DNA from: Saprospiraceae bacterium
Lineage (GTDB): Bacteria; Bacteroidota; Bacteroidia; Chitinophagales; Saprospiraceae
Reading direction: 5' to 3'
Length of the DNA stretch: 64,000 bases
Assembly (NCBI GenBank): GCA_026982695.1
Contig: JALSGS010000053.1
Coordinates: 124,001-188,000, forward strand
Below the pieces are notes generated by a model. It was not told where the DNA came from. It did not search any database and saw only the letters and a list, made by a program, of their open reading frames with translations. Every line of letters begins with the position of its first letter. Position 1 is the stretch's first letter. Positions 24,171-26,530 of the stretch are shown piece after piece. The position numbers and the translations under genes were made by a program.

Positions 24171-24368
24171 ACACGATGGCATTAGGCTTAAGATCAAGGA
24201 CAAGGTGCACCCAATTTCCAACAAAGCCCCTTGATATTTTTTACTTTTCAATCGGATGCGTTTCCTTTGCCCGACGAACAAAGGTCTTAAAAACACTCCA
24301 TACCTACCACCTTCCTCTCATCCACTCACCTTTTGCCAAATCAGAAAACAATATTCAAACGAAGCACT

Positions 24369-25241
24369 ATGCAATACCTACACGACTCCGAGCTGATCCT
24401 CAACCCCGATGGCAGCATCTACCATCTCAATCTCCTTCCTGACGAAATCGGTCAAATTATCTTTACAGTAGGTGACCCACAAAGAGTAGAGATGGTATCT
24501 CAACACTTCGATGCAATAGAAATAAAAAAATCCAAGCGCGAGTTTGTCACCCATACGGGGCGATTGGGCAACAAACGCGTCAGTGTAATGAGCACGGGCA
24601 TTGGTCCAGACAATATCGACATCGTCGTTAATGAGTTAGATGCCTTGGTCAATATCGACTTACAGGCACGTATCCCAAAACCCAAACACACCTCCCTTAT
24701 CATCATCAGGCTGGGCACTTCTGGGAGTCTACAGCCCGATATCGAAGTCGACCAAACAGTAGTCTCTGCGTGGGGCGTGGGCCTGGACAACCTTCTGTTC
24801 TTTTACCCCGACTACCGCAAAGTACACCACAAAGAACTGGCCCACCGCGTCGAACTGGCCCTAGACAACAAACTGGCGGTATACGCAGTAGAAGGAGCCC
24901 CTTCACTCGTAGCACATTTTTCTAGGCACTTTAAACACCTTGGCATCACCTTGACTAGCCCCGGCTTTTATGGCCCACAGGGGCGGTCGCTACGCCTCCC
25001 TACGGTACTACAACCTACTCACCTCGACGAGCTACGTGCCCTGCGATGGGGGCACTGGCGCATCACTAACTTCGAAATGGAGACTGCTGCACTTTTTGGT
25101 CTGGCACGTCTGTTGGGGCACCGGCCACTGTCGTGCAATACTATTCTGGCCAATCGATCTGGGGGCAGCTTTAGCCCAGACCCCTACCGAGCAATCAGAA
25201 AAATGATTGAACGTGCTATGGAAACAGTAGATGCCCTGTAA
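24369..25241 (+). CDS. Nucleoside phosphorylase (uridine phosphorylase-like)
   Basis: 290 residues from ATG 24369. The N-terminal TVGDPQRVEMVSQHF matches the phosphate-binding GDPxRV motif of the PNP/UDP family. STGIGPDNIDIVVNEL is the second conserved block, and TNFEMETAALFGLARLLGH supplies the Glu-Met-Glu nucleoside-binding motif. The family splits nucleosides with phosphate to give a free base and ribose-1-phosphate; uridine is the closest guess. A minus-strand terminator-like hairpin overlaps the stop codon region. Confidence 0.88.
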   Translation: MQYLHDSELILNPDGSIYHLNLLPDEIGQIIFTVGDPQRVEMVSQHFDAIEIKKSKREFVTHTGRLGNKRVSVMSTGIGPDNIDIVVNELDALVNIDLQARIPKPKHTSLIIIRLGTSGSLQPDIEVDQTVVSAWGVGLDNLLFFYPDYRKVHHKELAHRVELALDNKLAVYAVEGAPSLVAHFSRHFKHLGITLTSPGFYGPQGRSLRLPTVLQPTHLDELRALRWGHWRITNFEMETAALFGLARLLGHRPLSCNTILANRSGGSFSPDPYRAIRKMIERAMETVDAL

Positions 25242-25370
25242 AAAAAATGATGACCTCTGATTGTTGAACCAGAGGTCACCGACAAAGAAACGCTCCGAGA
25301 AGGTGTTGGCAAAAACCGGGTAGGAAAGAACTATTCGCAACCGAAAAGGTGGGAAAGCTTGCCAACGCCC
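25241..25370 (-). ncRNA. Candidate structured small RNA (about 125-130 nt)
   Basis: On the minus strand a TTG -33 box (25402-25400), a 21-nt spacer and TATCTTTA (25378-25371, one mismatch to TAnnTTTG) would start transcription near 25366. The transcript opens with GGCGTTGGCAA (25369-25359), which pairs with TTGCCAACACC (25312-25302) in an 11-bp stem with one wobble. A perfect 9-bp hairpin TGACCTCTG/CAGAGGTCA (25278-25251) follows, then TCA and eight T. So promoter, closing stem and intrinsic terminator all lie in order. I cannot identify it as SRP, tmRNA or RNase P. The size and long hairpin would allow a 6S-like RNA, which is speculation. Confidence 0.4.
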
Positions 25371-25402
25371 TAAAGATACGCAACTGATTAGTTTGCCTAC
25401 AA
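25371..25402 (-). promoter_or_regulatory. Putative promoter of the candidate small RNA
   Basis: TTG, 21-nt spacer, TATCTTTA on the minus strand. The last base deviates from TAnnTTTG. Confidence 0.45.
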
Positions 25403-25501: not shown

Positions 25502-25532
25502 TTGGTCAAATGGATTAAAGGACCTATCTTTG
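25502..25532 (+). promoter_or_regulatory. rplU-rpmA promoter
   Basis: TTG at 25502-25504 and TATCTTTG at 25525-25532 are separated by 20 nt, matching the Bacteroidota -33/-7 consensus. The start of transcription would be about 35 nt before the rplU ATG. Confidence 0.8.
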
Positions 25533-25918: not shown

Positions 25919-26530
25919 ATGGCACATAAGAAAGGTGTAGGTAGTACAGATAATGGCCGCGATTCCCATAGCAAACGATTGGGTGTGAAACTGTTTGGCG
26001 GTCAAGTGGCTCGCCCTGGCAACATCATCGTGCGCCAACGTGGCACGAAATATCATCCGGGCAAAAACGTCTACATGGGGAAAGACTTCACGATCCATGC
26101 AGCTATAGAAGGCGTAGTTACCTTCAAGCGCGGCCGCAAAAACCGCACGTTTATTCACGTATTGCCCTTGGAAGAAGTAGCCGAAGTAGCTGCCCCCGCA
26201 GCAGTAGCACGCCAGGCCAAAGCCCGTAAAACTCCAGAACAAACTACAACGAGTAGTAAGACGCAAAAGGAGTCGCCAGCTGACGATCTGCGCAAAATTG
26301 AGGGCATAGGCCCTAAAATTGCTTCATTGCTCGTAGAGGCGGGTATTGACACTTTTGCTAAGCTAGCTGCTACCGATGCAGACAAAATCCGTGAAATTCT
26401 CGAAGCTGCTGGTAGCCGTTACAAAGTACACGACCCCACTACCTGGCCACAACAGGCTGCACTAGCTGCTGAAGGCAAGTGGGAGGCGTTAGCCGAGCTT
26501 CAGGATAAACTAAAAGGAGGGAGGCAGTAG
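25919..26530 (+). CDS. rpmA: Ribosomal protein L27 fused to a C-terminal helix-hairpin-helix domain
   Basis: 203 residues against about 85 for ordinary L27. Residues 1-85 are standard L27 ([20 protein letters not shown], later [20 protein letters not shown]). Residues 86-120 form an Ala/Lys/Thr-rich flexible linker. Residues 121-203 form a domain with [20 protein letters not shown], a helix-hairpin-helix, ending in [17 protein letters not shown] and [10 protein letters not shown]. The same domain is, as far as I recall, appended to L21 in many Bacteroidota. The base composition is continuous and there is no stop or frameshift at the junction, so the fusion looks real. Its role on the ribosome is unknown. 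Confidence 0.93.

Follow-up and report, generated by a model that had tools for sequence, protein, structure and literature searches.

To our knowledge, the small RNAs (sRNAs) of the Bacteroidota have been little charted outside a few model genera. 6S RNA consists of a long helix interrupted by a central bubble that resembles an open promoter, and it is present in most species of a lineage. In Bacteroides thetaiotaomicron, the sRNA FopS is described in 14 copies with a single-stranded 5' stretch that carries the seed and is followed by a terminator, and its structure is reported as deposited in Rfam, according to the accessible part of the source (PMC11697453). In Caulobacter, CrfA and SisA-D represent an experimentally tested system in which one sRNA pairs with others and inactivates them, as the accessible sections of the report present it (PMC12559287).

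Here, we describe a minus-strand locus between a phosphorylase gene and rplU of a Saprospiraceae bacterium, within a stretch of 64,000 nucleotides that was analysed as a whole (the window). A sequence-only reading had proposed an sRNA at this place with its 5' end near 25366, and conservation, covariation and the comparison with Rfam all support the proposal. The RNA, termed A, is probably a trans-acting base-pairing sRNA of a family outside Rfam, having the segment CCUUCUCGGAGCGUUU as its putative seed, and in the genus g44 a second RNA, B, would titrate it or serve as its partner. A resembles FopS and GibS of Bacteroides in its exposed conserved seed, its intrinsic terminator and its primary-sigma promoter (canonical in FopS), while it differs from them in having one copy per genome, as counted by pattern, and in starting with a stem-loop instead of an open 5' stretch, as far as the accessible text of the source allows the comparison (PMC11697453). 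A would work like the FopS/GibS-type sRNAs but, judged by copy number and architecture, is outside their family. It is also similar to Rfp18 and the other Rfp sRNAs of Flavobacterium psychrophilum, being lineage-limited, structured, stand-alone and provided with a TAnnTTTG promoter; the predicted pairing region of Rfp18, unlike that of A, lies in the third stem-loop, a comparison made by description from the accessible part of the article (PMC9723704). Together, A and B of g44 have the anatomy of sponge pairs such as CrfA with SisA-D, which belong to another phylum, whereas A and B are known from complementarity and from conservation in two species (PMC12559287, accessible sections).

Predicted elements of RNA A at the window locus

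The features of the locus are presented in Table 1. All the elements that had been read in order on the minus strand (a TTG, 21 nt, the box, a stem, a 9-bp hairpin and eight T) were found in the window. Transcription was predicted to start at 25366, the first base of the closing stem P1, because the -7 box TATCTTTA was set at -12 to -5, the position given for F. psychrophilum in the accessible part of PMC9723704. Concerning the closing stem, GGCGTTGGCAA (25369-25359) does stand opposite TTGCCAACACC (25312-25302) on the minus strand with 46 nt between them, and the stem claimed earlier is therefore present; its length of 11 bp did not hold, as the pairing includes one C/A mismatch, the outer three positions precede the predicted start, and the stem that is conserved and covaries in relatives has 8 bp (25366-25359 with 25312-25305). 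The inner stem P2 of the window has four pairs only, one of them G.U, while the terminator hairpin has a perfect 9-bp core (TGACCTCTG/CAGAGGTCA) and 14 pairs according to the terminator scan. Folding energy gave z = -2.69 for the window copy (3/200 shuffles equal or better) and z = -5.59 for the copy of the same genus in G001 (0/200 shuffles equal or better).

Table 1. Predicted features of the A locus, of its neighbouring genes and of RNA B (window positions unless another locus is named).
Feature	Position	Strand	Basis or remark
RNA A, predicted sRNA transcript, about 127 nt	25366..25240	-	Start from the -7 box, end from the U-run
TTG, -33-type element	25402..25400	-	21 nt upstream of the -7 box
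TATCTTTA, -7 box (Bacteroidota primary sigma factor type)	25378..25371	-	Consensus TAnnTTTG (PMC7366714, accessible part)
Closing stem P1, 5' arm GUUGGCAA	25366..25359	-	Partner 25312-25305; 8 pairs
Closing stem P1, 3' arm UUGCCAAC	25312..25305	-	Alignment of 10 members
Inner stem P2, 5' arm UCGG	25344..25341	-	Partner 25319-25316
Inner stem P2, 3' arm CCGG	25319..25316	-	Alignment of 10 members
Apical loop, pyrimidine-rich stretch (GUUCUUUCCUA in the window)	25340..25320	-	Letters judged by eye
Segment CCUUCUCGGAGCGUUU, 16 letters, proposed seed, mostly unpaired	25303..25288	-	Identical in 10/10 members
Intrinsic terminator hairpin	25280..25249	-	Covariation and terminator scan
Terminator U-run, eight T	25247..25240	-	Overlaps the phosphorylase stop codon
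Phosphorylase superfamily protein (PNP_UDP_1), convergent neighbour	24333..25241	+	Pfam PF01048, E 1.1e-23
rplU, ribosomal protein L21	25575..25886	+	Pfam PF00829, E 2e-38
TATCTTTG, promoter-like box, likely rplU's own	25525..25532	+	Read in the sequence; same letters before rplU of G001
RNA B, 93-nt intergenic RNA gene (G044 and G155)	L222, about 1437-1546, and matching stretch of L223	+	Complement search

Covariation and promoter conservation

In the alignment of the ten members (A6), both-side changes occurred in 18/23 pairs and 97.8% of the 227 cells were paired, against a mean of 76.6% in shuffles (0/500 as high) and 30-51% when the columns were slid by 1-3 positions, although A6 was fitted to the structure of the model, which favours the paired-cell score. 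The closing stem is conserved and covaries in the ten members, with both-side changes in five of the 8 P1 pairs and 100% of the cells paired. P2 has both-side changes in all five columns (paired cells 95.7%, 10 members) and the terminator in 8/10 modelled pairs (97.0%, 10 members). RNAalifold, to which the structure was not supplied, returned the same three helices from A6 and added two C-G pairs within the segment as well as two further terminator pairs. The number of further pair types in A6 was not distinctive (30, compared with 27.7 in shuffles; 95/500 as high). The apical loop was pyrimidine-rich by eye in 10/10 members.

A -7 box of the form TAnnTTT[GA] ends 2-3 nt ahead of the first aligned stem base in 10/10 members, where about 0.0012 per member would be expected from the frequency of the box in the window. 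A TTG is located 19-22 nt before the box in 9/10 members, the only TTG of G001 being at 25; as a background, 12/76 boxes in the window carry one. The promoter was absent from all the models and patterns by which members were found, and it was used as one sign in the sorting of 34 contigs (see below). Both the predicted promoter and the intrinsic terminator, as would be expected of a trans-acting sRNA, are conserved in 10/10 members. Taken with the folding z, the recurrence of box, stems, segment and terminator in all ten members, and of the TTG in nine, bears out the earlier statement that such an ordered set exceeds chance; a fortuitous arrangement with no RNA behind it is practically untenable, being refuted by the covariation and by the conservation of both promoter and terminator across ten species. 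Comparison establishes A as a putative stand-alone non-coding RNA gene with a sigma-type promoter, conserved stems, an open segment and a terminator.

Homologues and distribution

A DNA search revealed a syntenic copy of A in G001, of the same genus, with 79% identity over 99 query bases (E 8e-16). A covariance model (R1) was built from the window and G001 sequences and applied to 150 family genomes, the best 22 candidates per genome being scored. At E <=1, 42 genomes matched, of which five were kept (E <1e-10), and three more copies of A were obtained from other genera (G044, G155 and G084; E 1e-11 to 1e-13). Among the matches at E 5e-4 and weaker, L063-L068 were inspected and all were without the full set of elements, L065 having a one-mismatch look-alike of the segment. 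In the match at L063 (1277-1385, minus strand; G086; E 5e-4), the closing and inner stems are good and the segment is missing; it is perhaps a chance match or a diverged relative of A.

A pattern scan of 248 family genomes matched 22, eight of which are members including the window genome, and added three copies of A (G104, G193 and G250), for which R1 gave E-values of 1e-9 or better when run on their loci. A scan of a named-species collection (84,980 species) with the segment matched 34 contigs. Nine were accepted as members by promoter, stems and terminator, seven of them already known and two new (HyVt-532, i.e., G546, and NAT133, i.e., G541); in the other 25 this combination of box, stems and terminator was not seen by eye, L116 being a plain terminator hairpin. 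The family includes ten species with that of the window, in four genera; those that have a name bear the label Saprospiraceae, Saprospirales or Bacteroidetes. The order scan covered 396 genomes with the best 8 candidates per genome scored, and 8 matched, the weak G428, G503 and G532 being dropped as they had no segment. Within the order scan (best 8 candidates per genome) and the family scan (248 genomes), A is limited to the genera g1, g44, g83 and g103. Diverged members may be missed, since the best few candidates per genome were scored and several of the searches require the segment.

Each of the five member genomes checked for copy number has one site of A by pattern; that pattern matched 21 genomes, of which these five are members, and the rest were judged by their letters. 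G546, and no other genome, has a second, shorter look-alike of A (L169, 1501-1598, plus strand; E 1e-4) composed of a hairpin, TTTTCTCGGAGCGTTT (the segment core) and a terminator, which is possibly a second member type beside A in that genome.

Comparison with 6S and other Rfam families

All Rfam models (4227 families) were run over A, as the sequence-only reading had advised, and no family matched on its own strand, either in the window (E <=10) or in the members (E <=5 in eight others). 6S-Flavo was tested within these scans. RAGATH-33 (RF03102) was rejected, as its hit was on the plus strand with 11.7 bits against a gathering cut-off of 120.4 (E 7.7).

The likeness to 6S-type or other housekeeping RNAs that had been suggested from the size of A was not upheld. 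A is in the size range of 6S RNA (RF00013) and is likewise an independent transcription unit, and a search of the whole window genome with RF00013 (E <=1) gave no match elsewhere, all of which would suit an RNA of the 6S type, or another housekeeping RNA, so diverged that the Rfam models no longer recognise it. Its structure, its terminator and its distribution are different: an 8-bp closing stem, a lopsided internal loop and a short inner stem replace the two long helices with a central bubble, and the open segment and the terminator follow the stem-loop. A was found in 4/112 sampled genera of the family (8/248 genomes) and in 3/14 species of the genus g83, and because of this it is unlike a housekeeping RNA. 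On these three grounds (no Rfam match, other architecture, patchy distribution) the 6S or housekeeping identity was rejected, and we consider it very unlikely. The distribution fits an old chromosomal sRNA gene that has often been lost; spread of A by transfer between genera is also possible.

Genomic context

The genes adjoining A vary from genus to genus. Downstream, A meets a convergent gene in the window, G001, G155 and G084 and a co-directional one in G044 and in the g103 species. Farther downstream, the window (from 4.4 kb) and G044 (from 3.0 kb) have a run of genes in common, and since this run is shared, the two copies may occupy a common ancestral place. Another gene of the window, at 25919-26530 on the plus strand, encodes ribosomal protein L27 with a C-terminal helix-hairpin-helix extension (Pfam Ribosomal_L27, HHH_5); a stretch similar to the extension recurs in the g103 species, in the gene downstream of A.

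As had been noted from the sequence, overlap of A with protein genes is limited to the tail of the phosphorylase gene, where the U-run meets the stop codon (25239-25241). An RNA extended by readthrough would run antisense to the phosphorylase gene, and this overlap, as well as the co-directional gene that follows A in the g103 species, could be expected if A were a cis element, namely a riboswitch, a leader or an antisense regulator of its neighbour. We regard this as improbable, as the antisense overlap is confined to the terminator, and A is not a leader, because its flanks vary among genera and a convergent gene comes next in the four genomes named above. A is also outside the leader of rplU, since rplU has a likely promoter of its own, TATCTTTG, beyond A; the identity as an rplU leader or riboswitch was rejected on this ground and on the variation of the neighbours.

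The comparisons made gave no hint that A or B came from a mobile element or a virus: viral contigs gave 0 matches to the 18-letter pattern of the segment, the window copy of A had no match when compared with plasmids, and B had none when compared with phages. The reverse complement had 15 hits in viral contigs.

The conserved segment

The segment is identical in 10/10 members, and in each member its mean probability of being unpaired (0.60-0.74) is higher than that of the whole RNA (0.40-0.49), which is what a conserved accessible seed of a trans-acting sRNA would look like, with the reservation that selection for the segment was in part built into the searches. Specifically, five members (G104, G193, G250, HyVt-532 and NAT133) were found by segment-based patterns, three with one mismatch allowed, and since half of the ten came in this way, the search itself accounts for part of the identity; G001, G044, G155 and G084 came from the DNA comparison or from the model, which contains the segment as one part. 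No occurrence of the segment core letters, as RNA or DNA, was found in the literature, and no description of a Saprospiraceae RNA like A was met among the leading matches of topic searches, most subscription papers being outside the coverage in both cases.

A frame reading PSRSV[FS] passes through the segment in every member, with an in-frame ATG, GTG or TTG upstream in 9/10, as would be needed if A coded for a short peptide. These starts are at varying places and are mostly TTG or GTG of P1, G084 has no start, the frame overruns the end of the RNA in 6/10 members, and the segment is without any synonymous change. A peptide gene was rejected on account of the inconsistent starts, the overrun and the missing synonymous change, and we hold coding to be extremely unlikely.

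Returning to the segment as a putative seed, its complement sites (16-mer, <=2 mismatches) in the ten member genomes numbered 26 outside the RNA itself, compared with 32 for the reversed control, and hence there is no general excess. Nineteen of the 26 were inspected; 15 overlap an open frame of at least 80 codons on either strand, and no recurrence at the same gene across genera was seen by eye among the 19. One of the 26 is the G546 look-alike. A wobble-tolerant complement pattern gave 24 matches in the same genomes against 56 in the control, and among 15 further wobble sites none combined a promoter box with a non-coding place and none was similar to B. Small RNA targets often lie near the start codon. 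At L249 (G084:C186:13655-13683), a wobble-pairing site is located about 15 nt after the ATG of an open frame, and it is possibly an mRNA target of A, a candidate that, as one site among many, serves as a lead only. In G104, a non-coding site around 1501 of L220 carries AAACGCTCCGAGGAGC with no terminator visible, while the opposite strand has a TATTTTTG box followed by a CTCGGAGCGTTTT stretch, which lies within a possible 5' leader.

Candidate partner RNA B in genus g44

Two of the 26 complement sites, those in G044 and G155, are intergenic and led to B, which comprises a TATATTTG box of its own, a small hairpin, a stretch complementary to A's segment and a terminator. B is 90/93 identical between G044 and G155, with the aligned flanks diverged. 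These are the only two of 20 genomes that carry it, as by pattern it was absent from the 18 others, eight of which are carriers of A. Pairing of B with A extends over the whole segment and its edges, with 20 contiguous pairs (two G.U) and -36.1 kcal/mol. The pairing of the segment with B was equalled in 0/1011 and 0/966 genomic stretches of 93 nt (G044 and G155, respectively), taken from the fetched portions of the two genomes with any stretch that holds the exact complement of the segment excluded. For the duplex of the whole RNAs, 0/1000 shuffles were as good in each species; compared with genomic stretches it was not exceptional (34/1001 and 15/958 as good). Because it was a complement search that brought B to light, finding it does not test the pairing independently. 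B is in part supported as a candidate sponge or partner, by its conservation as a gene and by a predicted pairing over the full segment such as either role would entail.

An alternative view of the segment is that it binds a protein or the transcription or translation machinery, perhaps together with the pyrimidine-rich loop, and that A would sequester or guide its ligand instead of pairing with mRNAs. A protein footprint could equally keep 16 letters unchanged in ten species while the stems vary freely, and it would agree with complementary sites not being enriched in the member genomes. B argues against it, as in g44 this separate RNA gene is complementary to the entire segment, counting G.U pairs, and we find a purely protein-binding A rather doubtful.

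Proposed mechanism and implications

As a base-pairing sRNA, A would act in trans. Its 5' stem-loop would shield the 5' end and display the pyrimidine-rich loop, while the exposed CCUUCUCGGAGCGUUU, which separates the stem-loop from the terminator, would be the seed for pairing with other RNAs. In the genus g44, B bears the full complement of the segment and would probably titrate A or act as its partner. One may tentatively go further and envisage A and B as a dedicated two-RNA circuit, in which the frozen seed would serve a broad set of targets and an unlinked anti-sRNA gene, newly arisen or recruited in g44, would pair with the entire seed and silence A; we offer this as a conjecture that has the odds against it. 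If it were true, A may have different partners, not yet recognised, in the other genera.

A represents, as far as the searches reach, a new family of a known kind, and perhaps one half of a two-RNA circuit. Plain sequence search misses sRNAs of this type, because little beyond the fold and a short segment is conserved. With the A family, a covariance model, a testable seed and predicted positions for both ends become available, and the g44 pair of A and B would offer a convenient test case for RNA-RNA titration in Bacteroidota.
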